DNA of 64,000 bases from NCBI RefSeq assembly GCF_004353825.1, contig NZ_SMNA01000004.1:310001-374000 (forward strand), written 5' to 3'. The notes beneath the pieces are model-generated. The model searched no databases, had not been told where the DNA came from, and was given only the letters and a program-made list of their open reading frames with translations. Both the position numbers and the translations under genes were made by a program. Within the stretch, counting starts at the first letter, position 1; each line of letters begins with the position of its first letter. This document shows positions 30,620 through 50,069 of this stretch, one piece after another. Origin of the DNA: Occultella glacieicola. GTDB lineage: Bacteria; Actinomycetota; Actinomycetes; Actinomycetales; Beutenbergiaceae.

Positions 30620-30748
30620 GGAACCGAGCGTAGCACTCGTGCTACGGGCCTTCGCTCTTGAGGTCGGGGTCGATCGTGGCGGCCGCCAGCAACGCTGGAC
30701 TCGAGGAGGTGACAGTCCAGGTTGCTGATGTCTGGGTCGAGAGCGCGA

Positions 30749-31519
30749 TCAGCGAGGGCCGCGGGCGCGGTCGCCATGCTGGTGATGGAACCGTACGCGC
30801 TGCCCGATCCAGACCGTGCGCGAGGCTTCGATGAGTGCGCCCTCGCTGTCGATACTGACGGCATTGACGACCATCAGGGGAGCCTCCTGCGGGCAGCGCA
30901 GGATCTCCGCGAACTCAGGGGATGCGGTCTCCGGATGGAGGTAGCTGTGTACTTCGGTCGCGACGATGCCGTACCGGCTCTCCAGGGTGGTGGACAGGGA
31001 CCCCTCGATGAGCGGCATGGACTCGATCCCTGGCGCGACGGCCGGTGCGAGCCAGGAATCGGACATGCCGATCGGGTTTCCGTCGACGAGTTGCAGGCGG
31101 CGGAACCAGCGTGGCCCGATGTCGCCGTGGGCGAGGTCCAGGTCGAACAACAGCGCGACGGGCGGCGCTCGAATGTGTTCGGTCGGGACCTCGACGGACG
31201 TCGCCTGCATCCCGGAAGTCGCGAGCCGGTCGCGCCAGGGCTGAGCGATCGCGAGATCGTGCTGGACCACCTGCACGGTCTCCGAGACGAACGTGCCCGA
31301 CCCCTGTCGACGATGGATGTAGCCCTCGTCGGCGAGCGAGCTCAGGGCCTGCCGGACCGTGATCCGGCTGACGCCGTAGTTCTCCGCCAACTCGTTCTCG
31401 CTCGGCAACTGCGCCCCGGACGCGAGTTCGCGTTGCTCGATCCGCCGCCTGATGTCACGGGCGATCTGCCCCCACCGTGCAACGGGAGACCGTCGATCCG
31501 TTGTCGCCGCCATAGTCAT
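30749..31519 (-). CDS. GntR-family regulator with UTRA effector domain (HutC type)
   Basis: 256 residues. The N-terminal winged helix is clear (LPSENELAENYGVSRITVRQALSSL, about residues 39-63), followed by RRQGSGTFV. The C-terminal UTRA domain includes WFRRLQLVDGNPIGMSDSWL and GIVATEVHSYLHP. UTRA regulators sense small molecules such as phosphosugars. It is divergent from the 13-gene ribosyl/purine-type operon starting at 31656, with an operator-like palindrome in the shared promoter, so it probably controls that operon. The ATG at 31519 was chosen; longer forms extend into the promoter. Confidence 0.9.
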   Translation of the reverse strand: MTMAATTDRRSPVARWGQIARDIRRRIEQRELASGAQLPSENELAENYGVSRITVRQALSSLADEGYIHRRQGSGTFVSETVQVVQHDLAIAQPWRDRLATSGMQATSVEVPTEHIRAPPVALLFDLDLAHGDIGPRWFRRLQLVDGNPIGMSDSWLAPAVAPGIESMPLIEGSLSTTLESRYGIVATEVHSYLHPETASPEFAEILRCPQEAPLMVVNAVSIDSEGALIEASRTVWIGQRVRFHHQHGDRARGPR

Positions 31520-31590
31520 CCCCACCCGCTCCCGACCCGTGGGCAACTGTGCCATGCCCCGTGCCGCAAGAGTCCCGTACCGAAGTTGTC

Positions 31591-31619
31591 TTGACAAGGA
31601 TACCCTTAAAGGTACTAAG
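31591..31619 (+). promoter_or_regulatory. candidate promoter and GntR operator of the 31656-45235 operon
   Basis: TTGACA at 31591-31596 is a perfect -35 box. A -10-like TACTAA lies at 31613-31618 after a 16-bp spacer. Within the spacer and overlapping the -10 is TACCCTTAAAGGTA (31601-31614), a palindrome with one mismatch per arm. Binding of a repressor there would block RNA polymerase. The region is AT-rich compared with its surroundings and lies between the divergent GntR gene and the kinase gene. Confidence 0.55.
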
Positions 31620-31655
31620 GTCCCTACAACCAGATGGGCGACCAGGAGGTGAACG

Positions 31656-32615
31656 ATGGACGACATCCGCCAGGTGGCACTCGGTCACGTCGTCATCGAC
31701 GACATCGTGCTCACGGACGGACGAGAACTGACGGGGATGCTCGGTGGCGCCGGTGCCTACGCCGCCCTCGGACAGGCGCTAAGCAGCGGCCGCAGGGTGG
31801 CCCTGCTCTCCGGGATCGGGGCGGACTTCCCGCCGGAGGCGGCCATGCACCTACGGGCTGCAGGCGTCGACCCCGACGCGTTGACCGTCCTGAACGAGCA
31901 CACCCCGCGGACCAGGATCCGCTACTTCGCGGATGGCGAGCGCGAGGAGTCGCCGGCGTACGGCATGACGCACTTCGTCGCCCTCGACCCGACCGCGGCG
32001 ATGCTGCCGCACGGACTCGGCGACCTGTCCGGGGTCTATGCGTTCGCTTCGGTCGAGGACCCGCTCTGGCAGGACGTGCCCGATCTCGCCCGGACGAGCG
32101 GCGCCACTCTGCTGTGGGAGATCCACGCCGACTCGTGCGCGCCGGGCCGGTTCGACGAGGTGGCGGCCCGGTTGGCCGAGGTCGACATCCTTTCCCTCAA
32201 CCGTGCCGAGGCGCGGAACTTGTGTGGCAGCGCGGACCTGACCGTGTGCCTCCGTCGGCTCCTGGAGCACGTCGGCGTGCTCGCGCTGCGGCTCGGGTCG
32301 GACGGCGCGCTTGTCGCCACCCGCACGCGCGTCGCCCGCGCGCGACCCGCGGCGCGAGCCGTGATCGACCCGACCGGGGCCGGCAACGCGTTCAGCGGTG
32401 CGCTCGTCGGCGCGTGGCCCGCCGCCACCACCGGCGAGGAGACAGACCTGAGGTCCCCGCTGGCAGCAGCGATGGCAGCCGCGGCCCTGACCATCGACCA
32501 GTACGGCCCGCCACCGGTGACCGAGTCGGTGCGCGCCAGTTTTCGCGCGCTGGCCCGCTCGGTCGAGGTCACCCTCGCACCCCTCGACTCCCTACAGAAC
32601 GGAACACAGCTGTGA
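31656..32615 (+). CDS. PfkB-family sugar kinase-like protein with Asn in place of the catalytic Asp
   Basis: 319 residues of the ribokinase fold. The N-terminal glycine motif reads GMLGGAGAYAA (about residues 27-37). The C-terminal PfkB signature reads DPTGAGNAFSG (residues 238-248); the usual catalytic Asp of GAGD is N244, and the codon is AAC. The frame around it is intact, so this is not a frameshift. It may have weak kinase activity, use another base, or bind ligand only. First gene of the operon; its stop overlaps the SIS gene start (GTGA). A second kinase in the operon (35117-36040) keeps the Asp. Confidence 0.85.
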   Translation: MDDIRQVALGHVVIDDIVLTDGRELTGMLGGAGAYAALGQALSSGRRVALLSGIGADFPPEAAMHLRAAGVDPDALTVLNEHTPRTRIRYFADGEREESPAYGMTHFVALDPTAAMLPHGLGDLSGVYAFASVEDPLWQDVPDLARTSGATLLWEIHADSCAPGRFDEVAARLAEVDILSLNRAEARNLCGSADLTVCLRRLLEHVGVLALRLGSDGALVATRTRVARARPAARAVIDPTGAGNAFSGALVGAWPAATTGEETDLRSPLAAAMAAAALTIDQYGPPPVTESVRASFRALARSVEVTLAPLDSLQNGTQL

Positions 32616-33724
32616 TCAACCCGAACGCCCTGCACGATCAGGTGACCAGCCTGCCTGCCCTGATCAAGGAGCAGACCTGGCGCCTCGAGGAGGACCTGCG
32701 CAAGTCCGTCCCCACGCCGGTCCAGCACGCGATCCGACACGTCGTGCTCACCGGTTCCGGTGACTCGGCGATCGCTGGCCTGGCTGCCGAGCAGACGTTC
32801 CGGCGGTTCGTCGGCGTGCCCGTGTACGCCGGTGAGTCGCTCGCCGTAAGCAGGTTCCTGCTCGACTCCTATGGCAACGAGTACCCGCACACGCCGATGC
32901 TGCTCGCCACGTCGAACTCGGGCGAGGTCGCCCGGGTCGTCGAGGCAGCTCAGCGGGCCGCCGCGGCCGGCGGCTACGTCGTCGGCCTCACCGGGAACGC
33001 GCAGTCGCGGCTGGCCCGGACATCGCAGAGCATCGTCGACGTAGGGGCGCCCGCGTTCCCGGCCGCACCCGGGATGCGCAGCTACGTCATGGCCGTCCTC
33101 GCGCTCAACCTGTTCGCGATCCGGTTCGCCGAGGTGCGGGGGCGTATCACCATGGATGAGGCGCAGGCGCTGCGCGGCGAACTCGCCGGACTCTCCGACG
33201 TGGTTGAGCAGGCGATCGTGACGGCCGATGCTCCGCTGCGTTCCTTGGTGCAGGACTGGCGCGACCTCCAGGGGGTGGAATTCCTCGGCTCGGGGCCGTC
33301 GCGCGCTTCTGCGGCGTTCGGGGTGGCCAAGATCCTCGAGGCCGTCGGCAAGCAGTCTGCCCACGTCGATCTCGAGGAGTTCATCCACCTGAACTACTTC
33401 GAGCGGGCGGCCACCGGCATCGGCACCGTCGTACTGGCGCCGGCCGGCTCCCCGGTCCGCAGCCGCGCGGACGAGCTCGCGCCACTGCTGAACAACCTCG
33501 GCCGGCCGTGGGCCGCCATCGGCTCGGTCACCGACGCGCCCGTCAGCATCGAGATCCCGCAGGTGCGGGAGGAGTTCGCCCCGGTGGTCCAGGCCGCCGT
33601 GCTCGGTCTCCTCGCCGCTCACCTCATGGACGCAACGGGGGAGGAGCCGGGCCGCGGCGCCGTCGGCCCATGGGCGGATTGCGCGGACGGCGCCACCACC
33701 CGCGACAGCCAGATCGTCCTCTGA
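32612..33724 (+). CDS. SIS-domain protein, double-SIS glucosamine-phosphate deaminase/isomerase type
   Basis: 370 residues from a GTG start. Two SIS domains are visible: the first with HVVLTGSGDSAIAGLAAE (about residues 44-61) and SNSGEVARVVEA, the second with GVEFLGSGPSRASAAFGVAK (about residues 220-240) and the family-type EEFIHLNYFE. This pattern resembles the isomerase part of GlmS and AgaS/FrlB-like phosphosugar deaminases. It probably isomerises or deglycates a phosphosugar made by the adjacent kinase. Translation is coupled to that kinase by overlap. Confidence 0.85.
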   Translation: MINPNALHDQVTSLPALIKEQTWRLEEDLRKSVPTPVQHAIRHVVLTGSGDSAIAGLAAEQTFRRFVGVPVYAGESLAVSRFLLDSYGNEYPHTPMLLATSNSGEVARVVEAAQRAAAAGGYVVGLTGNAQSRLARTSQSIVDVGAPAFPAAPGMRSYVMAVLALNLFAIRFAEVRGRITMDEAQALRGELAGLSDVVEQAIVTADAPLRSLVQDWRDLQGVEFLGSGPSRASAAFGVAKILEAVGKQSAHVDLEEFIHLNYFERAATGIGTVVLAPAGSPVRSRADELAPLLNNLGRPWAAIGSVTDAPVSIEIPQVREEFAPVVQAAVLGLLAAHLMDATGEEPGRGAVGPWADCADGATTRDSQIVL

Positions 33725-33752
33725 GACGACGAGCAGACAAGGACCCCAGACC

Positions 33753-34172
33753 ATGACCAGCCGCCACCCACTACAGACCAATGGCAACGAGGCCTACGAC
33801 ATCCAGCCCGAGATCAACGACGCGGTCACCGAGAGCGGCGTCCAGGAGGGCCTGGTGACGATCGTCGCACCACACACCACCGCGGCGCTCGGAATCATCT
33901 CCTACCACGACCCGCTCGGGCTCGAGGACGTGATGGACGAGTTCCAGCGCCTGGTTCCTGCGCGGATCACCTTCAAGCACGAGCACGACACTCCGCAGGA
34001 CGCAGCCGGACACGTGCTGTCGACGATGGTGGGACCGACGCTCACGCTGATCGTCACCGGCGGCGAGGTGCTCCTCGGGCACTCCCAGAAGGTGTTCTTC
34101 CTCGAGTTCGATGGTCCCCGCAGGCGCCAGTTCTTCGTCAAGGTCACCGCCGACCCGACCCCCGGGGCCTGA
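33753..34172 (+). CDS. YjbQ/UPF0047-family protein
   Basis: 139 residues, the full family length. Conserved features include PHTTAALGIISY (about residues 40-51), DAAGHVLSTMVGP and the terminal LLGHSQKVFFLEFDGPR. The His residues form a putative metal site. E. coli YjbQ shows weak thiamine-phosphate synthase activity, but the true function is unresolved. Its place between sugar kinase/isomerase and nucleoside phosphorylase genes suggests a role in metabolism of a ribosyl compound. It follows the SIS gene by 28 bp. Confidence 0.88.
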   Translation: MTSRHPLQTNGNEAYDIQPEINDAVTESGVQEGLVTIVAPHTTAALGIISYHDPLGLEDVMDEFQRLVPARITFKHEHDTPQDAAGHVLSTMVGPTLTLIVTGGEVLLGHSQKVFFLEFDGPRRRQFFVKVTADPTPGA

Positions 34173-34175
34173 CCC

Positions 34176-35120
34176 ATGGACGCCGTCGACGCGATCGAGC
34201 CGCACCCGAGAACGACCGGCCCGGACGACGTGCTCGGTCGTTACCGGTACGCAGCGAACATCCCCGCCAACGGGCTCATGATCGATGGCCGGCCGGCCCT
34301 CACCCAACTCGACCCATCCCGGATCGGGCGGTACGTGCTGCTCGTCGTTCGCGACCCCTTGTGCGCCTACGACGAGGACCCGGCCGCCCAGTTCGCCGCC
34401 GAGCTCGACGACGCGGAGCTCGTGGGTCGCTCCGGGATGTTCACCACGTATTCGGGGACTTACGGCGATGCCCCGGTGACCGTGCTCAGCGGGGGATCGG
34501 GCGGCCCCGAGGTGGAGCTCGCGCTCATGGAACTGTTCGAGCACACGAACGCGGACACTTTCATCCGGGTCGGTGGTTCCGGAGGCATGCACGCCCGCGT
34601 GCAACCGGGCGACCTCGTCATCGCCACCGGTGTGGTTCGCGACGAGGGCGTCAGCCAGGCGTACATCCCGCAGGCCTATCCGGGCGTCTGCTCGCCGGAG
34701 GTCGTGCTCGCGCTGACGCAGGCCGCGGCCGGTCACGGCGCACCGTTCCACCTCGGACTCACCCGGTCCACAGACTCGGACTTCGTGGCCGGCGGCCGGC
34801 CCGCTGCGCGCGGCTACTTCCAGCCCGCCCATCTGGACCTCGTGGAGACCTGGACCAGGGCCGGCGTCCTCAACGGAGATCGCGAGTCCGCGGCGATCGT
34901 CACCCTCGCGAGCCTGTTCGGGCTCCGTGGCGGCTCGATCTGCTCGGTCGCCGACAACATCGTCACCGGCGCGAGGTTCATGCCGGGGGCCGGTCACACC
35001 GACGCGATGAGGGTCGCGCTCGACGGTGTCGCCGTGCTTCACGCCATGGATCGCGCGCGCGAGGCCGCCGGGCTTGCCATGTGGATACCAGCGCTCTCCG
35101 AAGCGGGTGGGTCCGCATGA
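34176..35120 (+). CDS. nucleoside phosphorylase (PNP/UDP family)
   Basis: 314 residues. The phosphorylase superfamily core is visible in TVLSGGSGGPEVELALMELF (about residues 102-121) and TFIRVGGSGGMHARVQPGDLVIATG (phosphate/ribose-binding strand), with the acidic catalytic region around TDSDFV. The family splits nucleosides with phosphate to a base and ribose-1-phosphate. It is a few dozen residues longer than typical uridine phosphorylases, mainly at the N-terminus. It fits a nucleoside-degrading role for the operon. Its stop overlaps the next kinase start (ATGA). Confidence 0.87.
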   Translation: MDAVDAIEPHPRTTGPDDVLGRYRYAANIPANGLMIDGRPALTQLDPSRIGRYVLLVVRDPLCAYDEDPAAQFAAELDDAELVGRSGMFTTYSGTYGDAPVTVLSGGSGGPEVELALMELFEHTNADTFIRVGGSGGMHARVQPGDLVIATGVVRDEGVSQAYIPQAYPGVCSPEVVLALTQAAAGHGAPFHLGLTRSTDSDFVAGGRPAARGYFQPAHLDLVETWTRAGVLNGDRESAAIVTLASLFGLRGGSICSVADNIVTGARFMPGAGHTDAMRVALDGVAVLHAMDRAREAAGLAMWIPALSEAGGSA

Positions 35121-36040
35121 GAACGGTCCTTGTCGACGGCGGACTGAGCCGCGACCATCTGGTCACCGTCGGTCAGCCGCCCCGCTTCGACGAGCCGGGC
35201 GGGCCGGGCGTCTACGCGAGCCTGGCTGCGGTCCTCGCGGTCTCGCTGCTGCGGCATCGGAGTGCGGAATCGATGCAGGTGGCGCTGAGCACGACCCTGC
35301 CGAGAGCCGATGAGGACATTCGGGCGGTGCTCGCCGGGGCGGGCGTCGACCTCAGCCTGTGCGTGGACGGCCCGGCGATCCCGAAGCTCTGGATCCTCAA
35401 CTCCCCGCAGGGGCGGCGGATCGTGCGGACTGCTGCGTCGGCGACGGCACACGAACTCGACGAGACGGACGACCTGGGGACTGCGCCACCCGCCCAGCTG
35501 GGCGCCACCGCGCCCGATGTCCTACTCCGGTGTGCGCCCACCCGGGCGCTCGAAGGTCGACGCCCGGCGGTCACGCTCGTCGACCCGGACCAGCAGTCCC
35601 TGGCGGTCGGCGGCTGGGACTACGTTGCCGAACTCACCCCACGGACCGACGTCTATCTGCCAAGTCGTGTGCAACTGACCCAGCTCGGTGCCGACCCGGT
35701 GGAAGCGGCGTGGGAACTGCGGCGCAGGACGGGCAGGTCGGTGGTCGCCAGGCTCGACGCCGAGGGATCCCTCGTCCTGCCCCCCGGCGGGGGAGCCTGG
35801 CGGGTCGCCGCCGGGACGGTCGACGTCGAGGAGACCACAGGTGCCGGCGACAGTCACGCCGGCGCGTTGGCGGCCGCACTGGCGCAGCCGGGCACGACGC
35901 TCGTCGACGCAACCCTGATCGCCACCGCAGCCGTCGCCCACAACCTTGCGGCGCCCGGAATCGCCGGCCTGATCGGCGGCGACGAGATCACCGAGAACGA
36001 GCTGCGCGGCATTCGCGTGGAGGAACAGGAGCAGCCGTGA
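35117..36040 (+). CDS. PfkB-family carbohydrate kinase (second copy)
   Basis: 307 residues. The C-terminal signature is EETTGAGDSHAG with the catalytic Asp intact (D245). The N-terminal region (GGPGVYASLAAVL) aligns in type with the first kinase of the operon, suggesting the two share an ancestor. It overlaps both neighbours by 4 bp and is followed directly by a second SIS gene, repeating the kinase-SIS order seen at 31656-33724. It probably phosphorylates the sugar released or imported. Substrate unknown. Confidence 0.87.
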   Translation: MRTVLVDGGLSRDHLVTVGQPPRFDEPGGPGVYASLAAVLAVSLLRHRSAESMQVALSTTLPRADEDIRAVLAGAGVDLSLCVDGPAIPKLWILNSPQGRRIVRTAASATAHELDETDDLGTAPPAQLGATAPDVLLRCAPTRALEGRRPAVTLVDPDQQSLAVGGWDYVAELTPRTDVYLPSRVQLTQLGADPVEAAWELRRRTGRSVVARLDAEGSLVLPPGGGAWRVAAGTVDVEETTGAGDSHAGALAAALAQPGTTLVDATLIATAAVAHNLAAPGIAGLIGGDEITENELRGIRVEEQEQP

Positions 36041-36960
36041 CCGACCAGCACACCGCAGCCGCAGCACTCGGCGGCCTCGCAGTTCCCGACATCACGCCAC
36101 TCGGCGGGCGCCGGGCTGCCTTCCTCGGCTGCGGAGACTCACTCGCGGCCGCGAGAGGGGCCGAGGCCGACGGGCATCGGGTCCTGTCCGCCGGTGACGT
36201 CGCCTGGAGCGGCAGCGCCCCTCGCGGGGTCGACCTGGTGGTCCCGCTGTCCTGGTCCGGGCGGACCGGGGCGACGATCCGCGCAGCCCAGGTGGCCAAG
36301 GACGCCGGCCTACCGGTCCTGTCGATCACCTCCAACCCTGCCTCCCCACTGGCCGAGCTCTCGGACGAGCACATCGCCCTGCCTCCCAACGACATCGCCG
36401 AGGACATCCCGGCGATCGGCTACGCGCTGCACTCGTCCGCGATCGCACGGCTGGTCGGCCTCGCCAGTCCGGACCCCGCCACCCTCGCCCGGGACTGGGC
36501 CGATGCCGGACAGGGCGTAGCCCGTGTCGTCACGGCCGCGGGCGGTGAACCGGCCGGGATCACGATCGCGAGCATGCCGGACGCACACGGCGCCGCCGAG
36601 TTCTGGATGCTCAAGATCATCGAGGCCACCGGCATCACGGTCCGGACCGCGTCGATCGAGGAGATCGGTCACGTGGACTACTTCCTCGGCCCGCAGGCCC
36701 ATCTGACCCTGATCGTCTCTGGCGCTGCCGACGCGCCCCGGGCGGACGGGCTCGGTGCCGCGCTGGGCCGCAACGGCCAGCGCGTGGTCCAGATCCGGCT
36801 CAGCGACTTCACCGCCGCGGCTGGGACCGAACGCGAGATCCTCGGCGGTCTCATCGGCGCCGATGTGGCCGCCGGTCTCGCGGTCGCGTGGGGCAGGCCC
36901 CACTTCAGAGGCGGCGTCGTCGACATGTCGGCGCAGCACATCCAGGTGCCGGTCGCCTGA
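36037..36960 (+). CDS. SIS-domain protein (second copy, phosphosugar isomerase-like)
   Basis: 307 residues from a GTG start. First SIS motif: AAFLGCGDSLAAARGAEADG (about residues 27-46), then VPLSWSGRTGATIRAAQ. The second half keeps IEEIGHVDYFLGPQ near the position of the conserved EEF segment of AgaS-like proteins. It is shorter and more diverged than the SIS protein at 32612. Its start overlaps the kinase gene, which implies joint action on the same phosphosugar. Whether it isomerises, deaminates or only senses is not known. Confidence 0.82.
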   Translation: MTDQHTAAAALGGLAVPDITPLGGRRAAFLGCGDSLAAARGAEADGHRVLSAGDVAWSGSAPRGVDLVVPLSWSGRTGATIRAAQVAKDAGLPVLSITSNPASPLAELSDEHIALPPNDIAEDIPAIGYALHSSAIARLVGLASPDPATLARDWADAGQGVARVVTAAGGEPAGITIASMPDAHGAAEFWMLKIIEATGITVRTASIEEIGHVDYFLGPQAHLTLIVSGAADAPRADGLGAALGRNGQRVVQIRLSDFTAAAGTEREILGGLIGADVAAGLAVAWGRPHFRGGVVDMSAQHIQVPVA

Positions 36961-37008
36961 CCGGACCCACCCCCCGGAGAACCCACATCTCAACGAGGAG
37001 CGTCACCC

Positions 37009-38361
37009 ATGAAGAACATCAGAAGGACCCTTCGGGTCACCGCGGCCGCCGCAGCGATCACGCTATTGGCGGCCTGCGGCGCGGGCGGTGAAGGATCGTC
37101 CGACGGGCGTGAGGAACTCGAACTCTGGTTCTGGGGTGCCACGCCGGCGCAGCGGGCGGCCCTCGAGGAGAACCTCGTCGACGCCTACAACGCCTCGCAG
37201 GACGAGTACACCCTGACGGTCACGTTCAACGAGCGCGTCGACAGCAACATCCAGACCGCGCTCGCGGCCAACGAGGGACCGGACATCGTCTATGGCTCGG
37301 GCCCGTCGTTCGTCTCGCCGTTCGCGCAGAGCGGCAAACTCCTGAACCTCGACGAATACTCCGAGCAGTACGGCTGGCAGGACCGGCTCCTGGCACCGAT
37401 CTACGAGTCCGGCACCGTGGACGGCAGCCTCTACGCCGTCGCCAACTCCATCAACACGGTCGGGATCTTCTACAACCAGGCGGTCCTCGACGACCTCGGA
37501 GTCGGCGTTCCGACCACCATCGAGGAACTTGAGACGGCGTTGGCCGCCGCCCAGGACGCGGGACTCTACCCGTCGGTCACCGGGAACAAGGGCTGGCAGC
37601 CCGTCAACGAGAACTACTCCTCGATGTTCCTGACGGCGGTCGCCGGCCCGGACGCGATGCATGACGTGCTCACCGGCGCGGCCTCGTGGACGGACCAGCC
37701 CTACGTCGATGCCGTCCAGATGAGTGCCGACTGGTACGAGAACGGGTATCTCGGCGGCGGCCAGTACACCAACCTCAACTTCCTCGAGTCCATGCAGCTC
37801 CTCTCGGACGGGCAATCCCCGTTCTTCTTCGGACCGACGCTCGCGTTCCAGTTCGCGGCCGAGTTCTTCAACACCGAGAACGGCAACGTCGACGATCTCG
37901 GCTTCATCCCGTTCCCCACGGTCGGTGCGGAGCTCGAGTCGCCCCTGTACACGCTGGCCACCACCGCGTCCTTCTCGATCAACGCCCAGTCCGAGCATCC
38001 GGATGCCGCCGCCGAGGTCATCGACCACATGCTGACCGAGGACTTCATGAGCACGATGACCGCGCAGTGGCCCGGGTACTGGGGTGTCCCGCTCGCAGGG
38101 GTGGAACTCGACCCGGCGCAGTTCGACGGGCTGTCGGCAGCGTATGTAACCGCGCTCGTCGACATCCTCACCGCCACTGAGGAGGGTCGCTTCGGGTACT
38201 TCACCGGCACGTTCTTCCCACCCCAGACCCAGCAGGCCCTGGTTGACATCGACACGGTGTGGACCGGTCAGGCCGACGCCGAGACCTTCCTGACCGGCAT
38301 CGAGACCACCTTCGCCGCCGAACTCGCCGACGGTGCGGTCCCACCGATCCCGGCGCCCTAG
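37009..38361 (+). CDS. extracellular solute-binding lipoprotein of the ribosyl/purine-type operon
   Basis: 450 residues. A Sec-type signal peptide (KNIRRTLRVTAAAAAITLL) ends in a lipobox (LAAC). The mature part is a family 1 binding protein (ELWFWGATPAQRAALEENLV near the start). It should deliver the substrate to the two permeases encoded next. Family 1 proteins usually bind oligosaccharides or glycosides, so the ligand may be a glycosylated or ribosylated compound rather than a free nucleoside. A strong stem-loop follows the stop codon. Confidence 0.92.
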   Translation: MKNIRRTLRVTAAAAAITLLAACGAGGEGSSDGREELELWFWGATPAQRAALEENLVDAYNASQDEYTLTVTFNERVDSNIQTALAANEGPDIVYGSGPSFVSPFAQSGKLLNLDEYSEQYGWQDRLLAPIYESGTVDGSLYAVANSINTVGIFYNQAVLDDLGVGVPTTIEELETALAAAQDAGLYPSVTGNKGWQPVNENYSSMFLTAVAGPDAMHDVLTGAASWTDQPYVDAVQMSADWYENGYLGGGQYTNLNFLESMQLLSDGQSPFFFGPTLAFQFAAEFFNTENGNVDDLGFIPFPTVGAELESPLYTLATTASFSINAQSEHPDAAAEVIDHMLTEDFMSTMTAQWPGYWGVPLAGVELDPAQFDGLSAAYVTALVDILTATEEGRFGYFTGTFFPPQTQQALVDIDTVWTGQADAETFLTGIETTFAAELADGAVPPIPAP

Positions 38362-38370
38362 CAGTGGTGA

Positions 38371-38407
38371 CGGGTGGGTCGCCCACGCAGTGCGGCCGAC
38401 CCACCCG
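38371..38407 (+). terminator. intercistronic stem-loop between binding-protein and permease genes
   Basis: An 11-bp perfect stem (CGGGTGGGTCG at 38371-38381 with CGACCCACCCG at 38397-38407) and a 15-base loop lie in the 69-bp gap between the binding-protein stop and the permease ATG. Such hairpins are known to stabilise upstream mRNA or partly stop transcription, giving more binding protein than permease. No T-run follows, so read-through is expected. Confidence 0.7.
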
Positions 38408-38430
38408 AACCCGCAGGAACGGAACGACTC

Positions 38431-39357
38431 ATGACAGTTCTGAACTCTGTGCAGCCTGACGCCGACACCGCGACCGTCAAGGATGCCCGTCGTGGACGGG
38501 GACATGGTGTCCATTACCTACTCCTGGCGCCGGCGATCCTGCTCTCGATGGCGATCGTGCTCGTTCCCGGCGTGTTCACGTTGGTCACCTCGTTCACCGA
38601 CTGGAACGGTGTCGCGGCCGACCCGGAGTTCGTGGGCGTCGAGAACTACGCGGCGATCCTCGCGGATCCGATCTTCCGGACCGCCGTCGGGAACAACATC
38701 ATCTGGACCCTGTTGTTCCTGACCATCCCCGTTGTCCTCGGGTTGGGCGTGGCGTTACTGCTGCTTCGCCGGCCGCGCACGCGCGGGCTCTACCAGGTCA
38801 TCTTCCTGCTGCCCTACGTGATGGCCGCGGTCACGAACGCGATGGTCTGGCTGAACATGATCTACAGCCCCATCTCCGGAGTGATCGGGTTCCTGAACAA
38901 GCAGGGCTGGGACATCGACTCGCCGATCTCCAGCCTCGACGGCGCGATCTACGCGGTGGCCGCCGTCGACATCTGGCACTACTGGGGCTTCCTCCTCGTC
39001 GTCTACCTCGCGGCGCTGCGACAGACGCCGGTGGAGCAGATCGAGGCGGCCCAGCTCGAGGGAGCCAACTCGTGGCAGGTGTTCCGCTACGTCTACCTGC
39101 CGAACATCCGCCCCACGATGCAACTCATGTTCGTGATGATCATGATCTTCTCCTTCCTCACGTTCGACTACATCTTCCTGATGACCCAGGGCGGACCCGC
39201 CAACTCCACGGAGATGCTCAGCACGTTCGCCTACAGCCTCGCGTTCGCGACGTTCCAGTTCGGAAAGGCCGCGGCCGTCGGCATCGTCATGGGTGTGTTC
39301 GGGCTCGTCGCCTCCGTCATCTACACCCGCATGAGCCGGAGAGGCATGGACGTATGA
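38431..39357 (+). CDS. sugar ABC transporter permease, MalF type
   Basis: 308 residues with six predicted membrane helices and the EAA loop (IEAAQLEGANSWQVFRYVYLP). The ATG at 38431 follows GGAACGACTC, a modest ribosome site. It forms the channel with the MalG-type protein encoded next, whose start overlaps its stop (ATGA). No ATP-binding subunit is encoded in the operon; a shared ATPase elsewhere is assumed. Confidence 0.92.
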   Translation: MTVLNSVQPDADTATVKDARRGRGHGVHYLLLAPAILLSMAIVLVPGVFTLVTSFTDWNGVAADPEFVGVENYAAILADPIFRTAVGNNIIWTLLFLTIPVVLGLGVALLLLRRPRTRGLYQVIFLLPYVMAAVTNAMVWLNMIYSPISGVIGFLNKQGWDIDSPISSLDGAIYAVAAVDIWHYWGFLLVVYLAALRQTPVEQIEAAQLEGANSWQVFRYVYLPNIRPTMQLMFVMIMIFSFLTFDYIFLMTQGGPANSTEMLSTFAYSLAFATFQFGKAAAVGIVMGVFGLVASVIYTRMSRRGMDV

Positions 39358-40190
39358 GCCGCAGCTCGAACCGGGCGCTGCGGGCGACCCCCGGTCACAT
39401 CATTCTCATCCTGCTCGTGTTCACGGCGCTGTTCCCGATCGTGCTGGTGCTGCTGAACAGCCTGAAGGATGCCCCGGAGGTGGTGCGCAATCCACTCGCG
39501 CTGCCCGAGTCCCCGGACTGGTCGAACTTCGCCGAAGCGTGGCAGTACGCCGGATACACCCGCGGATTCGCCAACAGTGTGCTGCTCACTGCCACGACGG
39601 TCGCGACCGTGCTATTGACCGCGGCGCCGGCGGCCTACGTGCTCGCTGCTCGCAAGATCAAGGCGGCCGGCCCGGTGATGATCTATCTCATGGTGGCCAT
39701 GACGGTGCCGATCCAACTCTTCCTGTTCCCGCTCTACGCGGTGTTCGCCCGGCTCGGCCTGCTCAGCAACGTCGTCGCCGTCGGCGTGATCGTCGCCGCG
39801 ATCAACATGCCCCTCGCCGTCATGCTGCTGCGCACGTTCTTCCTGCGGATCCCGAGCGAACTGCCGGAGGCCGCCACCATGGACGGCGCGAACACCTTCC
39901 AGGTGCTCCGGCACGTGCTGGTCCCTGCCGTCTCGCCCGGCATGATCACCGTCGGCATCATCGTAGGGCTGAACGCCTGGAACGAGTACCTCATCTCGGT
40001 GACGTTCCTCCAGCGGGAGGAGAGCTACACCGCCACCCTCGGGTTCCTGTCCCTGACCGGAACGTTCGCGGTCGACCAGGGGGTCCTGATGGCCGGCGCG
40101 GCCATCCTGATCCTCCCGATCGTCTTCCTCTTCCTAGCCGCCCAGCGCAAGTTCGTCGACGGTCTCGTCAGCGGTTCGGTCAAGGGGTGA
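39354..40190 (+). CDS. sugar ABC transporter permease, MalG type
   Basis: 278 residues, six helices, with the EAA loop (LPEAATMDGANTFQVLRHVLVP). The C-terminal FVDGLVSGSVKG is typical of MalG subunits. It overlaps the MalF-type gene by 4 bp. The end is followed by the ADP-ribosylglycohydrolase-like gene within 11 bp, so import and cleavage of the substrate are probably co-expressed. Confidence 0.92.
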   Translation: MSRSSNRALRATPGHIILILLVFTALFPIVLVLLNSLKDAPEVVRNPLALPESPDWSNFAEAWQYAGYTRGFANSVLLTATTVATVLLTAAPAAYVLAARKIKAAGPVMIYLMVAMTVPIQLFLFPLYAVFARLGLLSNVVAVGVIVAAINMPLAVMLLRTFFLRIPSELPEAATMDGANTFQVLRHVLVPAVSPGMITVGIIVGLNAWNEYLISVTFLQREESYTATLGFLSLTGTFAVDQGVLMAGAAILILPIVFLFLAAQRKFVDGLVSGSVKG

Positions 40191-40201
40191 TCCCGGTGGT
40201 C

Positions 40202-42343
40202 ATGAAAGAGCAGGACTACACGGAACGCACGTATGCGGGGGTACTCGGGAAGATCATCGGCGTCTACCTGGGGCGCCCTGTCGAGGGCTGGCCCTACGCC
40301 GACATCGCCGAGCGGTTCGGGACGTTGACGCACTACGTCAACGACCAACTCGGGATCCCGGTCGTGACCGCGGATGACGACATCTCGGGCACGTTCGCGT
40401 TCTCCCGCGCGGTGCTCGACCACGCCGGCACCGGGCCGCTCAACGCCCGGCAGGTCGGCGAGACCTGGCTCAACTACATCGTCGAGGACCGCACGATCCT
40501 GTGGTGGGGCGGACGTGGGCGATCCACCGAACACACCGCCTATCTGAACCTCAAGAACGGCGTGCCCGCGCCCGGATCGGGCTCCGCGCGACGCAACGGG
40601 CGGACCCTACCCGTGCAGGTGGGCGCCCAGATCTTCGTCGACGGCTTCGCCATGATGAGTCCCGGTGACCCGGACCGGGCCGCTGCCCACGCCCGGGCGG
40701 CGGCCTCCGTGAGCCACGACGGCGTGGCCGTGGATGCGGCCGCGTTCATCGCCGCGATGGAGGCACTCGCCTACATCGAACCCGACCTGCACGTCCTGAT
40801 CGAGACGGGACGGACCCAGGTCAAGGATCCGGTCCTGCAGCAGATCATCGACGACGTGCTGACCTGGTGCGCGCCAGGCGCCGACTGGCGTGGGGTCCGG
40901 GACCGGATCGAGCAGACGTACGGCTACTCCGTGTTCCACGGCCCGTGCCCGGCCACGACCAACAACGCCGCGGTGCTCTCGGCCCTTCTGCTCGGTGGCG
41001 ACAGCTTCCACCGGGCCGTCTCGATCGCGTCCTCGGCCGGCTGGGACACCGACTCCAACGCCGGCGTGGTCGGCGCACTGAACGGGATCAGACTCGGGCT
41101 CAGCGCCCTGGACGCGGAGGCGGACCTGCGCTCGCCGGTGGCCGACCAGTTGCTGGTGGTGACCGCGGACGGTGGGGAGTGCATCTCCGACGCGGTGCAG
41201 CAGACGCGGGCCATCACGGCCGGCAGACGCCTCCTCGACGGTCTCCCACCTGCGCCTCGGCCGGCACGATTCGCATTCGAACTGCCCGGCTCCGTGCAGG
41301 GCTTCGCCCCGTGCCCGGACGTCGCTTCGCCCTACACCCGGGTAGCGGTCGCCAACGTCCACCCGCGCCCCGGCGGACGGGTCGGCCCGGATGCGGGCGG
41401 CCTGGTGATCACGTGCGCGGGCATCGCCGAAACGGTGCCCGCGGCCGTCTCCACCCCGGTGTTCCTACCGAGGGCCGCGGACGGGGACAACTTCTCGACC
41501 ATCGCCAGCCCGACCCTCTACCCCGGGCAGCGCGTCCGGTTGACTGCCCGCCTCGCGGCGCCCACGTCGCAGGCAGGCCCGACGCTGCGCCCGTACGTGC
41601 TCACCGAGGCTGACGCACGGATGGTGGCGACGTTCGGTCCCGACCTCCTCCTGGCGGAGGAGCCACGCGAGGTGGTCTGGGAGGTGCCCGAGGTCGGTGC
41701 GAACCCGATCCTGCGACTCGGTGTGGCGGTGACCTCCACGAGCCGGTTCGACGGCGACGTGGTGCTGGAGCGGGTGGACTGGTCCGGCGCACCGGTTCGC
41801 CACGCCCGGTCCGGCGTCCTGATGACCTCGATCTGGGACCTCACCCCGGAGCCGCTGCGGGCGTGGGTGAGCTCGGCGAAGGACTTCGAGGCCGACTTCA
41901 GGTACTCCTACTCCGTGTCCCACCCCGAGGGGACCGGATTGGCGACCATCGGCACCCGGGACTGGGACGACTACACGTTCTCCTCGACCCTCGTGTTCAA
42001 TCCCCACGAACGCGGCGGCCTGGTGGTCCGGGCCCGCGGACACCGCCGCTACTACGCCGCGGTGTTCGAGTCGTGGCAGCGGATCTCGTTGGTGCGCCGC
42101 GACCACGACCGTGAGGAGATCCTCGCGAGCGCACCCTTCACGTACGCCGAGGACGTGCCCTATCGGGTCACGGTGAGCTGCCATCGGGACCGGCTCACGG
42201 TCAGGATCGACGACGCCGAGGTCCTGACCGCCTCGGACGACGCCGCGAACGCGCACTCGAGCGGAGGCGCGGGCTTCCTCGTCACGACCGGCACCGTGCT
42301 CGCCGACGGCTTCGAGGTCGGTTCGCTCGGGCCGGACCGATGA
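40202..42343 (+). CDS. ADP-ribosylglycohydrolase-family protein with C-terminal beta-sandwich domain
   Basis: 713 residues. The N-terminal ~350 residues are an ADP-ribosylglycohydrolase (DraG/ARH) domain: the metal-binding acidic cluster ADDDISGTF (D58-D60) and GWDTDSNAG (D282, D284) are in place. The middle holds a beta-rich linker, and the last ~200 residues (from about 505) resemble a LamG/concanavalin-like jelly roll (DWDDYTFSSTLVF, YRVTVSCHRDRLTVRIDD). No export signal. It probably hydrolyses an N- or O-ribosyl bond of an imported compound. ATG 40202 was chosen; a GTG at 40187 overlapping the permease stop is an alternative. Confidence 0.85.
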   Translation: MKEQDYTERTYAGVLGKIIGVYLGRPVEGWPYADIAERFGTLTHYVNDQLGIPVVTADDDISGTFAFSRAVLDHAGTGPLNARQVGETWLNYIVEDRTILWWGGRGRSTEHTAYLNLKNGVPAPGSGSARRNGRTLPVQVGAQIFVDGFAMMSPGDPDRAAAHARAAASVSHDGVAVDAAAFIAAMEALAYIEPDLHVLIETGRTQVKDPVLQQIIDDVLTWCAPGADWRGVRDRIEQTYGYSVFHGPCPATTNNAAVLSALLLGGDSFHRAVSIASSAGWDTDSNAGVVGALNGIRLGLSALDAEADLRSPVADQLLVVTADGGECISDAVQQTRAITAGRRLLDGLPPAPRPARFAFELPGSVQGFAPCPDVASPYTRVAVANVHPRPGGRVGPDAGGLVITCAGIAETVPAAVSTPVFLPRAADGDNFSTIASPTLYPGQRVRLTARLAAPTSQAGPTLRPYVLTEADARMVATFGPDLLLAEEPREVVWEVPEVGANPILRLGVAVTSTSRFDGDVVLERVDWSGAPVRHARSGVLMTSIWDLTPEPLRAWVSSAKDFEADFRYSYSVSHPEGTGLATIGTRDWDDYTFSSTLVFNPHERGGLVVRARGHRRYYAAVFESWQRISLVRRDHDREEILASAPFTYAEDVPYRVTVSCHRDRLTVRIDDAEVLTASDDAANAHSSGGAGFLVTTGTVLADGFEVGSLGPDR

Positions 42344-43245
42344 CGGGTATCGCCGTGGTGGGCAGCCTCAACGAGGACCTCGTGGTGGAGGTCGTCGTGG
42401 CACCCGCGGCCGGTGAGACCGTATTGGCCCGTGGTCACCAGCGCGGACTCGGGGGCAAGGGCGCCAACCAGGCCGTCGCGGCGGCCAGGCTCGGCGGCCG
42501 AGTACATCTGACGGGGTGCGTCGGTGACGATGCCGGCGGCAACGAGTTCCGGCGTCGGCTGGCCGCCGAGCGGATCGATACGACCGGCATCCGGGTGCGT
42601 GACGGCGGTGCCACTGGACTCGCCGTCATCGTCGTCGACCGAGCCGGGGAGAACCGGATCCTGGTCAGCGCCGGCAGCAACGCGACCTTGGGCCAGGGGG
42701 ACCTCTCCGAGGGTGCCCTGGCCACGGCGTCCGTCGTGCTTGCGCAGCTGGAGGTGCCGGCGGACGCGGTGCTGGCTGCGTTCCGGATGGCCGCCGGGCG
42801 TCGGATCCTCAACGCTGCACCGGCCGCTCCGGTGTCGGCGGAGCTGCTCGAGCTCGTCGACATTCTGGTTGTCAATGAGACCGAGCTCGCCTCGATCACG
42901 GGCCGGGGGATCCCCGAGAGTCCCCACGAAGCACTCGCACAGGCCGGCGTCGTGACCGGACCGGAGACGGTCGTCGTCACGCTGGGCGGCTCGGGTTGCG
43001 TGGTACTCACCTCCGGTGAGTCATGGCACGAACCCGGTCGCACCGTTCCGGTCGTCGACACGACAGCGGCCGGCGATGCCTTCTGTGGCGCCCTCGCCGT
43101 GCGGCTCAGCGTGGGCGACGACCTGCGGAGCGCGGTGCGGTACGCGACCCGGGTGGGCGCTGCCGTCGTGACCCGTCGTGGAGCCATCGACTCCCTCCCA
43201 ACCCTTACCGAACTCGACGATCCGGACGAAGGATGGAACGCATGA
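42340..43245 (+). CDS. ribokinase-like PfkB-family kinase
   Basis: 301 residues, ribokinase length. The N-terminal signature is GLGGKGANQAVAAARLG (about residues 36-52), and the C-terminal signature DTTAAGDAFCG has the catalytic Asp D245. The substrate-binding pattern (GSLNEDLVV) is close to ribokinase. It would turn ribose released by the hydrolases into ribose-5-phosphate. It overlaps both neighbours by 4 bp (ATGA), so it is translated with the ADP-ribosylglycohydrolase-like and nucleoside hydrolase genes. Confidence 0.9.
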   Translation: MTGIAVVGSLNEDLVVEVVVAPAAGETVLARGHQRGLGGKGANQAVAAARLGGRVHLTGCVGDDAGGNEFRRRLAAERIDTTGIRVRDGGATGLAVIVVDRAGENRILVSAGSNATLGQGDLSEGALATASVVLAQLEVPADAVLAAFRMAAGRRILNAAPAAPVSAELLELVDILVVNETELASITGRGIPESPHEALAQAGVVTGPETVVVTLGGSGCVVLTSGESWHEPGRTVPVVDTTAAGDAFCGALAVRLSVGDDLRSAVRYATRVGAAVVTRRGAIDSLPTLTELDDPDEGWNA

Positions 43246-44192
43246 CCAGCAAACTCATCATCGACTGTGACCCGGGCATCGACGACGCCCTGGCCATCAT
43301 CCTCGCCCTCAAGGACCCCGGCCTCGAGATCCTGGCGCTCACTGCGGTCACCGGGAACCTCCCGTCCGACCGCACCGCGGTGAACGCCCGCAAGGTGCTC
43401 GAACTCATGGGCGAGCGCGGGACGCCCGTCGCCCAGGGGCCGCTGCAGCCGATCTCACGGGAGTACCCCCACGACCCGTTCTCGCACGGGGACGACGGCC
43501 TCGCGAACACCGCCCTACCGGAGCCGACACTGCCCCTGGAGGACCGCAGTGCCGCGCAACTGATCGTCGACGTCATCAACGACAACGCCGGAGACATCGC
43601 GATCGCCGTGCTCGGCCCGATGACGAACATCGCCCTGGCGCTCGAACTCGACCCGGACCTGCCCCGCAAGGTGAGCAGGATGACGGCCATCGCCGGGTCG
43701 TTCGGATTCACCCGCTACGCGTGGACCCAAGCCACCGGCGACAACCCGGTCAGCGAGTGGAACGTCTACGTCGACCCCGGCGCGGCCGCCACGGTGTTCG
43801 CCGCCGGCTTCGCGCTGACCGCCGTCGGACTGGACGTCGCCACACACCCGGACGTGAATCTCAGCCCGGAGCGATTCGACCGACTCGCCGCGAGTGGGCG
43901 ACCCGAGGCACGGTTCGCGGCCGACATCGTCAGGTTCGTCCGCGGCCGCGGGTACCAGAGCTACTGCGCCCTGATCGACTCGCTGGCGATCGCAGCCCTC
44001 GTCCATCCTGAACTCATGACCACCCAGCGGATCCATTGCGCCGTGGAGACCCGCGGCGAGCTGACTCTCGGCATGACGGTCGCGGACGTCCGCAACCACC
44101 ACCGCTGGGAACACCTGCCACTGCTGGAGGCCGTGAGCGACGTCGATTTCGACGGTTTCCTCGACTATCTCGTCGACGGGCTGGTGCGATGA
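43242..44192 (+). CDS. inosine-uridine-type nucleoside N-ribohydrolase
   Basis: 316 residues. The calcium-binding DCDPGIDDALAI motif (D8, D10, D14, D15) is perfect, with HGDDGLAN near residue 82, VLGPMTNIA near residue 122 and EWNVYVDPGAA near residue 172. The C-terminal motif that normally reads His-Asp-Pro-Leu-Ala is IDSLA here: the calcium-ligand Asp (D246) is kept, but the proton-donor His is Ile (I245). The enzyme cleaves N-ribosidic bonds; loss of the His suggests a non-standard leaving group. It overlaps both neighbours. Confidence 0.88.
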   Translation: MTSKLIIDCDPGIDDALAIILALKDPGLEILALTAVTGNLPSDRTAVNARKVLELMGERGTPVAQGPLQPISREYPHDPFSHGDDGLANTALPEPTLPLEDRSAAQLIVDVINDNAGDIAIAVLGPMTNIALALELDPDLPRKVSRMTAIAGSFGFTRYAWTQATGDNPVSEWNVYVDPGAAATVFAAGFALTAVGLDVATHPDVNLSPERFDRLAASGRPEARFAADIVRFVRGRGYQSYCALIDSLAIAALVHPELMTTQRIHCAVETRGELTLGMTVADVRNHHRWEHLPLLEAVSDVDFDGFLDYLVDGLVR

Positions 44193-45235
44193 TTCGGCAG
44201 ATGAGCGACGTCCCGGCGAACCCCGCCACGCCTCCCTGCGCTGAGCTGCACCTGCACATCGAGGGCACGCTGGAGCCGGACCTGGTGTTCGCGCTCGCGG
44301 AGCGCAACGGGATCGAGCTTCCGGATCGGGACATCGCCGGACTGCGGTCCCGGTACGCCTTCACCGACCTGCAGTCCTTCCTCGACCTCTACTACGAGAA
44401 CATGGCGGTGCTGCGCACGCCGGCCGACTTCGCGGAGATGACGCGCGCCTACCTGACCCGGGCCCGGGCGGCCGGGGTTCGGCACGCCGAGATCATGTTC
44501 GACCCGCAGGCCCACCTGGCCCGGGGGGTGCCGCTGGCCACCAGCGTCGAGGGCATCGCGTCCGTGCTCCGCGCGAGCGAGGCCGAGTTCGGGATCTCGA
44601 CGGGGCTGATCGCGGCGTTCCTTCGGGACCGACCGGCCACCGAAGCGCTCGAGGTCCTCGAGGATCTGTTGGCGATGGACGCGCCGATCATCGGCATCGG
44701 CCTCGACTCCGCCGAGGTGGGGAACCCGCCGTCGGGCTTCACCGCGGTCTACGACCGCGCCCGCCGGGCCGGACTGCACCTGGTGGCGCACGCGGGGGAG
44801 GAGGGACCGCCGTCGTACATCGCAGACGCGCTCGACGACCTCGGCGTCGAGCGGATCGACCACGGGATCCGGTGCCTCGACGACCCGGCACTCGTGGCGA
44901 GGCTGGCCGCCGAGCAGATCCCGCTGACCGTCTGCCCGCTGTCCAACGTGCGGCTGCGGGCGGTGCCCTCACTCGTCGAGCACCCGCTGCGGCGGCTGCT
45001 CGAGGCCGGGGTGGTCGTGACGATCAACTCCGACGACCCGGCCTACTTCGGCGGCTACGTCGATGACAACCTGCACGCCGTGCGGGAGGTCCACAAGCTG
45101 ACCGACGACGAGCTGGCGGCGCTCGCGGCGAACTCGTTCCGCGCCTCCTTCCTCGACGGCGACCGGCGGGATGCGTTGCTCGCCGAGGTCGAGGCGTGGC
45201 GAACCTCGGCGCCCCCGGCCCTCGGTGCGAACTGA
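44189..45235 (+). CDS. adenine/adenosine deaminase family protein
   Basis: 348 residues. Zinc ligands are visible in HLHIEG (H21, H23), LVAHAGEEG and the NSDDPAYFGGY motif, with RIDHGIRC holding the conserved His. The HLHIEGTLEP and SDDPAYFGGY forms are closer to adenine aminohydrolases than to classical adenosine deaminases. It would convert adenine released by the hydrolase or phosphorylase to hypoxanthine. Start at the ATGA overlap; an ATG 12 bp downstream is possible. Last gene of the operon. Confidence 0.88.
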   Translation: MIRQMSDVPANPATPPCAELHLHIEGTLEPDLVFALAERNGIELPDRDIAGLRSRYAFTDLQSFLDLYYENMAVLRTPADFAEMTRAYLTRARAAGVRHAEIMFDPQAHLARGVPLATSVEGIASVLRASEAEFGISTGLIAAFLRDRPATEALEVLEDLLAMDAPIIGIGLDSAEVGNPPSGFTAVYDRARRAGLHLVAHAGEEGPPSYIADALDDLGVERIDHGIRCLDDPALVARLAAEQIPLTVCPLSNVRLRAVPSLVEHPLRRLLEAGVVVTINSDDPAYFGGYVDDNLHAVREVHKLTDDELAALAANSFRASFLDGDRRDALLAEVEAWRTSAPPALGAN

Positions 45236-45248
45236 GGGACCGGAGCGG

Positions 45249-46196: not shown

Positions 46197-46236
46197 CCGC
46201 CAGGTATACCAGCCGGCGCCGGTCGGAGCGCAGGGG

Positions 46237-48108: not shown

Positions 48109-48124
48109 CGGTGCTTCCTTTCAG

Positions 48125-49432: not shown

Positions 49433-49433
49433 G

Positions 49434-49976: not shown

Positions 49977-50015
49977 CGCTGCTCCGATTTCTTGTGGTTC
50001 AGGTGTCTTGAACAG

Positions 50016-50057: not shown

Positions 50058-50069
50058 GTCACTGCCTGG

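Follow-up and report, generated by a model that had tools for sequence, protein, structure and literature searches.

An operon of Occultella glacieicola that may move horizontally and may import and dismantle a glycosylated adenine nucleoside

Introduction

Which compound is handled by an operon that brings together PfkB and SIS proteins, nucleosidases, an importer and a purine deaminase? The question is raised by a locus of Occultella glacieicola located in the window, i.e. the whole stretch of 64,000 nucleotides analysed here (assembly GCF_004353825.1, contig NZ_SMNA01000004.1, positions 310,001 to 374,000). From 31656 to 45235 of this window, 13 plus-strand genes (g1 to g13) follow each other, preceded by a divergent gene for a GntR/UTRA regulator (R). 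By type this is an ATP-binding cassette (ABC)-import operon for nucleoside and sugar catabolism, with an unexplained core. An earlier note, made from the sequence alone, had seen in it a complete pathway for the import and dismantling of a ribosylated compound. Our preferred reading, to which we grant slightly less than even chances, is that of a horizontally moving catabolic operon that would import and dismantle an uncharged glycosylated adenine nucleoside, in the simplest case 2'- or 3'-O-ribosyl-adenosine. In its general form, that of a pathway for a glycosylated purine nucleoside, the claim is probable. Ribosyl-adenosine itself is a rather doubtful substrate, and we weigh the general claim above it because g1, g2 and g4 would not be needed for plain ribose. 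The gene content and order, the linkage across five phyla, the 13.5-kb unit that is either present or absent, and the active-site features are established.

Results and Discussion

Gene content and distribution

The regulator and the 13 packed, co-directional genes described in the earlier note are present, with the families that it gave. The Pfam and NCBIfam assignments are PfkB (g1, g5 and g11), SIS (g2 and g6), UPF0047/YjbQ (g3), PNP_UDP_1 (g4), SBP_bac_1 (g7), BPD_transp_1 (g8 and g9), ADP_ribosyl_GH (g10), IU_nuc_hydro (g12) and A_deaminase (g13). Neighbouring genes overlap by 4 bp at eight of the 12 junctions, and the remaining four are gaps of 3, 12, 28 and 48 bp.

An alignment of three g4 sequences was used with two peptide patterns to scan 84,980 genomes, which returned 34 loci in five phyla: 17 in Bacillota, 10 in Actinomycetota (Occultella aeris included), three in Chloroflexota, two in Spirochaetota and two in Alphaproteobacteria. 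Because the scan relied on two peptide patterns, more diverged g4 proteins were missed and the conservation of two stretches is biased. Gene presence was scored by tblastn with bit-score limits that we set, and the counts are lower bounds, each locus being cut off at a distance of 10 kb from g4 or where its contig stops (contigs are as short as 4.3 kb for L038 and 6.1 kb for L056). Besides g4, g1 was found in 33 loci, g2 in 25, g3 in 24, g12 in 21, g7, g8, g9 and g10 in 19 each, R in nine, g5 and g6 in eight each, g13 in seven and g11 in six; R, g5, g6 and g13 were found exclusively in Actinomycetota. Conserved synteny elsewhere, on which the earlier note had made its proposal depend, is thus borne out, subsets of these genes clustering in 34 loci of the five phyla. 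Named strains with related loci belong to Hungatella, Anaerotruncus, Lactonifactor, Georgenia, Kribbella and Arthrobacter. The median gap between g1 and g4 is 157 bp, and g1 shares the strand of g4 in 32 of 33 loci, as does g2 in 25 of 25. Between pairs of loci, the identity of g4 correlates with that of each of eight other genes (Spearman 0.39-0.78, uncorrected for species phylogeny; none of 499 permutations as high).

These data bear on the simplest alternative, an ordinary sugar-import operon in which unrelated nucleoside and sugar genes have come together with no shared pathway. It is true that the gene sets vary, that L043 holds four of the genes and L059 only g4, and that g13 is separable (see below). 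However, the same genes cluster repeatedly across five phyla with tight same-strand spacing and correlated divergence, and congeners either have or lack the block as a whole. We consider a chance collection very improbable.

The gene sets differ in their sugar-handling part. The g2 gene occurs without g5 and g6 in 23 loci, and g5 with g6 but no g2 in six actinobacterial loci (L037, L039, L042, L045, L046 and L050). Both sets are found in the window, O. aeris and Georgenia, and neither in L038, L043 and L059. For Arthrobacter Soil762 (L043:5121-13139), no SIS gene was found at the tblastn score limits, and g1-g4 are surrounded by genes for two xylose-isomerase-like TIM barrels, a Gfo/Idh/MocA oxidoreductase and a single-domain ADP-ribosylglycohydrolase (ARH). 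Since the g2 and g5/g6 sets vary and L043 has other enzymes, the sugar-handling step looks exchangeable around a constant g1-g4.

A mobile unit within Occultella

The block is present in two of the four Occultella genomes searched and absent from the same site in the other two, which retain g13. Comparing the window by blastn with stretches of these two congeners delimits a present/absent unit of 13.5 kb that runs from R through g12 (30656..44182): window positions 30655 and 44183 are only 83 bp apart in congener G003, and positions 29820 and 44183 only 133 bp apart in congener G001. The g13 gene is retained in both at 91-92% DNA identity. It is found in all four Occultella genomes, with or without the operon, and, with an E-value limit of 1e-60, in nine of 24 genomes of the family. 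Because g13 persists in congeners devoid of the block, the mobile unit consists of the regulator and g1-g12, with g12 abutting the start of g13, and g13 is ruled out as an integral gene of it. Of the 13-gene unit proposed in the earlier note, the tight packing holds, and g13 has to be set aside as a genus-wide gene outside the mobile block. The two congeners also differ beyond g13: in G001 flank matches resume after about 2.9 kb of other DNA, and in G003 no further flank match was seen within the stretch compared. Either an insertion into two Occultella genomes or a deletion from the other two would account for the presence and absence of the block. Base composition, considered as a mark of recent arrival, is uninformative, with 0.696 for the operon and 0.685 and 0.690 for its flanks in a window of 70% G+C.

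The block is rare near home. A full-length relative of g10 was found in the source genome and one congener among 99 genomes (own included), nine others giving partial matches of at most 37% identity. At E below 1e-30, g10 was found in three of 394 class genomes, again with its own. With E-value limits of 1e-20 for g6 and 1e-40 for g4, each was found in one of 296 class genomes, its own. In the g4 tree (34 rows, midpoint root, leaving out five paralogs, the fragment L066 and the near-duplicate L056), three Alphaproteobacteria group with O. aeris, Georgenia, the window and L043, the last on a long branch, and seven further Actinobacteria stand apart from this group (96/98). This topology suggests transfer between phyla. 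Searches of plasmids returned four records for g2, 64 for g4, none for g6 and 26 for g10. A Rhizobium leguminosarum plasmid carries a distant copy with a g4 that is 59% identical and with YjbQ, SIS and PfkB relatives close to it. On this plasmid, of strain Gr 12/7 (L030:17380-30705), the relatives of g12 and g7 are split between frames, so that the copy looks decayed; only a C-terminal ARH piece is found there, and a full ARH gene with permeases lies some kilobases further.

Proteins encoded by g1 to g6

The g1 protein (K1; 31656..32615) has the PfkB fold according to Pfam and G[AG]GN in place of the GAGD motif. Its Asn stands opposite the catalytic Asp of solved PfkB proteins and replaces it in 35 of 37 aligned rows; no row was made for a protein with an internal stop in its best tblastn match. 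Of the two rows that deviate, one is an out-of-frame piece in L066 and the other comes from a second PfkB gene in L069. The g1 protein is probably not an ordinary kinase. Pseudouridine catabolism (PsuK/PsuG) likewise places a PfkB-fold protein beside an enzyme that splits base from sugar, a pairing seen here in 33 of the 34 loci. Here, however, the splitting enzyme has a uridine-phosphorylase fold, g1 has GGGN or GAGN, and there is an SIS enzyme in addition. The ten NCBIfam matches of g1 do not include pseudouridine kinase. The g3 protein (33753..34172) belongs to YjbQ/UPF0047 (TIGR00149, 98.4 bits).

The seed of the genome scan, g4 (NP; 34176..35120), encodes a uridine-phosphorylase-fold protein with a remodelled phosphate site that matches 59 distinct PDB sequences. 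We take the phosphate site of phosphorylases to be G26, R30, R48, R91 and T94, and Glu198 to bind ribose (numbering of Escherichia coli uridine phosphorylase). Of the five phosphate-site residues g4 keeps one, the R91 equivalent R131; G26, R48 and T94 are replaced by Arg59, Gly87 and Gly134, and the R30 position lies beside an insertion. The scan patterns spanned the R59 and G87 stretches, and conservation is biased there. At the Glu198 position, Glu237 is found in 35 of 35 rows covering it, preceded in all 35 by Arg236, which replaces a ribose-site Met. An Asp at the purine-phosphorylase position, presumably the purine-type site of these enzymes, is present in 27 of 35 rows; the other eight, from the Bacillota loci L058, L060-L065 and L069, have Asn there and Asp one residue earlier. 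These counts omit five paralog rows and the L066 fragment, and L044 has no g4 row. Judged by these residues, g4 is a probable purine nucleosidase.

The g2 protein (S1; 32612..33724) is a double-SIS protein related to GlmS, FrlB-like enzymes and NagB-II. Glu243 and His259, 16 residues apart, and an S-x-S-G phosphate motif are present in 27 of 27 rows, as are equivalents in all nine rows of the second SIS protein, g6 (S2; 36037..36960; Glu196 and His212). We assume the Glu-His pair of both to be that of GlmS; on these alignments, g2 and g6 keep the isomerase-type pair. Against the PDB, the g2 profile scores up to 92.4 bits with GlmS domains, 63.5 with 3fkj and 54.6 with 3eua, and g6 has weak matches (best 36 bits), mostly over its first SIS half. 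Between the two lies g5 (K2; 35117..36040), a PfkB-type protein by Pfam whose GAGD motif is intact in nine of nine rows.

By family, g4, g1 and g2 are the same trio (phosphorylase fold, PfkB, sugar-phosphate isomerase) as would be expected if the pentose-bisphosphate route of archaea had a bacterial counterpart, in which nucleoside cleavage would yield ribose 1-phosphate and PfkB would convert this to ribose 1,5-bisphosphate for an SIS isomerase. The invariant Arg81, Arg108, Arg285 and Arg298 of g2 could hold the second phosphate. Yet g4 lacks most phosphate-binding residues of uridine phosphorylase, g1 lacks the kinase base, and no Rubisco was seen among the neighbours scanned, the genome not having been searched for one. 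The archaeal route itself uses an E2b2-type isomerase. We find this explanation about as improbable as that of a chance collection.

The strongest rival to our preferred reading is that the second sugar, or the sugar moiety, of the imported purine nucleoside is not ribose, as in a hexosyl or amino-sugar nucleoside. The g5 protein would then phosphorylate this sugar, and g2 and g6 would isomerise, deglycate or deaminate it in the manner of FrlD/FrlB or NagB-II. The kinship and conserved motifs of g2 and the intact GAGD of g5 agree with such a role. So does the presence of a GntR/UTRA regulator beside PfkB and SIS genes, which resembles the frl operon, and so does the constancy of the core next to differing base-processing genes, as the sugar may be what is constant. 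On the other side, Pfam matched no hexose- or amino-sugar-specific downstream gene in the operon, the FrlB-like structures score below GlmS with g2, and g1, the PfkB protein that is always with g4, has no catalytic Asp. We judge a sugar other than ribose unlikely, although far less so than the two preceding alternatives. The fructoselysine and fructose-asparagine systems (frl/fra) resemble our locus in having a PfkB-type kinase and a double-SIS protein, in their case a deglycase, under GntR/UTRA control, and the g2 profile does match 3eua, described as 'fructose-aminoacid-6-phosphate deglycase', and 3fkj. They differ in that the present operon adds nucleosidases, an ARH, a purine deaminase and YjbQ, that g1 lacks the catalytic Asp, and that the closest PDB kin of g2 are GlmS domains and not deglycases.

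Importer and downstream enzymes

The g7 gene (37009..38361) encodes a CUT1-type lipoprotein solute-binding protein. The best Foldseek matches of its AlphaFold model (mean predicted local distance difference test score, pLDDT, 89.3) are chitin- and xylo-oligosaccharide binders, with dinucleotide binders (7c0v, 7c0k and kin) lower in the list. As the 15 sequences compared across phyla are 48-60% identical, the relatives of g7 are suggested to share one ligand. The ABC permeases g8 (38374..39357) and g9 (39354..40190) follow. Pfam found no ABC ATPase among g1-g13; the search covered the operon and not the rest of the genome. Intact ADP-ribose and nicotinamide adenine dinucleotide are disfavoured as ligands by the oligosaccharide-binder fold of g7, and we rejected both, as no Nudix, phosphatase or nicotinamide family was matched by Pfam in the operon.

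The g10 protein (40187..42343) consists of an ARH domain (residues 18-310; PF03747, 157.6 bits) and a C-terminal extension of about 400 residues. D63-D65, D287 and D289, which we take to be the metal-binding Asp residues of ARH enzymes, are invariant in 17 sequences (L039 left out). In the model of g10 (mean pLDDT 77.4), the template modelling (TM) score is 0.74 by target length for ARH3 (7aqm) and 0.76 for CBM66 (4azz). Ranked by E-value, the first Foldseek matches are galactocerebrosidase and a phage fibre, but with TM-scores near 0.2 they carry little meaning. No phmmer match to the PDB was obtained, and profile matches were weak. The fusion announced in the earlier note is thus an ARH domain with an extension in which no second enzyme is recognisable: a second catalytic domain was rejected, the extension being a beta-sandwich whose last part is CBM66-like. 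In fold and metal-binding Asp residues g10 resembles ARH3 and DraG, from which it differs by its place within a sugar-import operon and its CBM66-like part. Two more ARH-family genes (L002 and L003) lie close together elsewhere in the source genome (C11:607402-609803).

The ribokinase-like PfkB kinase g11 (42340..43245) scores 275.2 bits with TIGR02152, below the cut-off of 299.65, and is present in at least six of the 34 loci. It is followed by the nucleoside hydrolase g12 (43242..44192), assigned by Pfam, whose DxDxxxDD metal motif is kept in 24 of 24 rows covering it. All 24 have Ile-Asp where five solved nucleoside hydrolases have His before the last Asp, presumably the leaving-group residue. 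The pair of g12 and g11 is reminiscent of salvage by RihA and ribokinase; the Ile sets g12 apart, however, and the RihA model gives 202.3 bits against a cut-off of 433. The plain roles of phosphorylase, kinase and nucleoside hydrolase that the earlier note had assigned are put in doubt by the changes in catalytic residues of g4, g1 and g12, on which we also rejected a simple operon of classical enzymes. The g13 gene (44189..45235), directly downstream of the mobile block, encodes an adenine/adenosine deaminase above the cut-off of NCBIfam adenosine deaminase models. In the PDB it scores highest with 3rys (459 bits) and 3ou8 (336 bits), which were both deposited as adenosine deaminase and which we take to be adenine deaminases.

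Proposed pathway

In our preferred reading, the nucleoside would be bound and taken up by g7-g9, which would rely on an ATPase from elsewhere in the genome, and the ARH domain of g10 would hydrolyse the sugar-O-ribose bond. ARH3 acts on the ribose-ribose bond of poly-ADP-ribose. The nucleosidases g12 and g4 would then cleave the purine N-glycosidic bond, and g13 would convert adenine to hypoxanthine. These four steps are the better supported ones. More speculatively, the free ribose might be phosphorylated by g11; the core g1-g2-g3-g4 might turn the sugar part into a phosphosugar of central metabolism, with g5-g6 as a second or alternative kinase and SIS enzyme; and the GntR/UTRA protein might repress the operon until a pathway intermediate appears. 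The substrate might be a leftover of poly-ADP-ribose or of plant TIR signalling. In leaves infected by Pseudomonas syringae, 3'-O-ribosyl-adenosine makes up about 1/2000 of the dry weight after 22 h (PMC6290457), and 2' and 3' forms of ribosyl-adenosine accompany TIR-dependent responses (PMC10242710).

The importer, ARH, ribokinase-like kinase, nucleoside hydrolase and deaminase fit an adenosine that carries an O-glycosidic sugar. In favour of our reading, the mobile block directly precedes a deaminase gene that congeners possess without the block. A nucleoside hydrolase-deaminase pair, divergent from g1-g4, is also found in six other actinobacterial loci (L038, L039, L042, L045, L046 and L050), so that the link between deaminase and pathway is repeated. 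Further support comes from the invariant metal residues and the ARH3-like fold of g10, from the identity of g7 across phyla and its oligosaccharide-binder fold with dinucleotide binders among the matches, from the Asp of g4 at the purine-phosphorylase position, and from a ribokinase-like gene in three (L027, L033 and L034) of six ARH loci that lack g4. Import and dismantling of a glycosylated nucleoside, as the earlier note had it, is supported by the families and by the conservation of the cluster, and release and deamination of a purine are supported as well. Calling the pathway complete was too strong: the operon has no ATPase gene, g13 belongs to the genus and not to the block, and g11 reaches the score limit in six of 34 loci.

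Several observations weigh against this reading. Ribosyl-adenosine would need neither an SIS enzyme nor an extra PfkB protein, and yet g1, g2 and g4 are the most conserved genes; the ARH and the binding protein (19 of 34 loci each) are less widespread, and g11 and the actinobacterial g13 are found in six and seven, all lower bounds. Eight Bacillota loci (L058, L060-L065 and L069) have none of g7-g10 at the score limits. Five of the eight have relatives resembling 8-oxoguanine deaminase, and seven have relatives of a ureidoglycolate-lyase-domain protein of L069. An AtzD-type ring opener and a Rieske oxygenase are among the neighbours of the Rhizobium lusitanum and Kaistia loci. In the other three of the six ARH loci without g4 (L026, L031 and L032), no ribokinase-like gene was seen. 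Because base-processing neighbours differ between loci, the base varies, and the sugar on which the core acts may be a different one. When added, synthetic 3'-ribosyl-adenosine left the growth of P. syringae in leaves unchanged (PMC6290457). Finally, the ligand and the enzyme activities are predicted from the genes.

In the eight Bacillota loci without g7-g10, further neighbours were seen. One neighbour in L060 scores 564.6 bits with the NCBIfam model of 8-oxoguanine deaminase, above its cut-off of 532, and a creatininase relative lies near the core in five of the eight importer-less Bacillota loci, which the g4 tree sets apart (100/99). Their neighbours resembling 8-oxoguanine deaminase, creatininase and ureidoglycolate lyase suggest a pathway for oxidised-purine nucleosides. 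The core accompanied by a relative of g7-g9, an ARH or both is found in 21 loci, of which nine are in Actinomycetota, eight in Bacillota, two in Chloroflexota, one in Spirochaetota and one in Alphaproteobacteria. It is conceivable, if improbable, that g1-g2-g3-g4 form an undescribed route for splitting purine glycosides with two branches, an adenine branch with ARH and import, which would let soil, root and gut bacteria eat ribosyl-adenosine from poly-ADP-ribose and plant TIR signals, and an 8-oxopurine branch in gut Bacillota. This idea would build on a PfkB protein without catalytic Asp and a phosphorylase fold without phosphate site.

Other neighbours are more scattered. Beside the core of R. 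lusitanum, on the opposite strand (L047:12573-16506), genes for an AtzD/TrzD-type ring-opening amidohydrolase, an amidase and a flavin adenine dinucleotide-binding protein are found. A PF05014 nucleoside 2-deoxyribosyltransferase-family protein is encoded after the nucleoside hydrolase in L041 (L041:13435-14547) and Bacillota relatives; nine Bacillota loci and, more distantly, the Treponema locus L052 have a gene like it. A DeoD-like phosphorylase occurs in L041, L051 and L067. Plasmids of Deinococcus aetherius and Agrobacterium tumefaciens (L033 and L034) carry a LacI regulator, importer genes, two ARH genes and a ribokinase gene, with no g1-g4 core.

Regulator and flanking genes

The regulator gene (30749..31519, minus strand) encodes GntR (81.7 bits) and UTRA (66.6 bits) domains. 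Its open reading frame extends to 31666; since this would overlap g1, a start at an internal ATG (31555, 31519 or 31513) probably fits better. With a start at 31519, the divergent intergenic region is 31520..31655. A three-way alignment with O. aeris and Georgenia reveals a TTGACA box common to all three, and the imperfect palindrome TACCCTTAAAGGTA, weaker in the other two; box and palindrome are a possible promoter/operator. The automatic scan of 30600-46300 detected no sigma-70 promoter and no terminator. No tRNA was found in the window, and its one short tandem repeat lies within g1.

Ten flanking open reading frames were scanned, three of them without a family match. Upstream are a solute-binding protein gene, an enolase-superfamily enzyme and an AraC-type regulator; downstream are an APH-fold protein, a 2-hydroxyacid dehydrogenase and two TRAP transporter genes. 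By family, none looks like a member of the pathway. The APH gene, which follows g13, was found in one of the four Occultella genomes. The dehydrogenase and TRAP genes (DctM and DctP; 47128-51260 on the other strand) are also present in congener G001, which has no operon.

Conclusions

Among the literature matches listed (titles and abstract openings), no account of this gene set was found, in line with the earlier note, which knew of no described system with this combination. A conserved pathway for nucleoside glycosides across five phyla is indicated. It would provide a shared context for four odd families, i.e. YjbQ, the GGGN-type PfkB, a phosphorylase fold without phosphate site and the SIS enzyme. 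If its substrate is ribosyl-adenosine, this would be the first bacterial route known to us for the consumption of a compound that makes up about 1/2000 of the dry weight in infected leaves.

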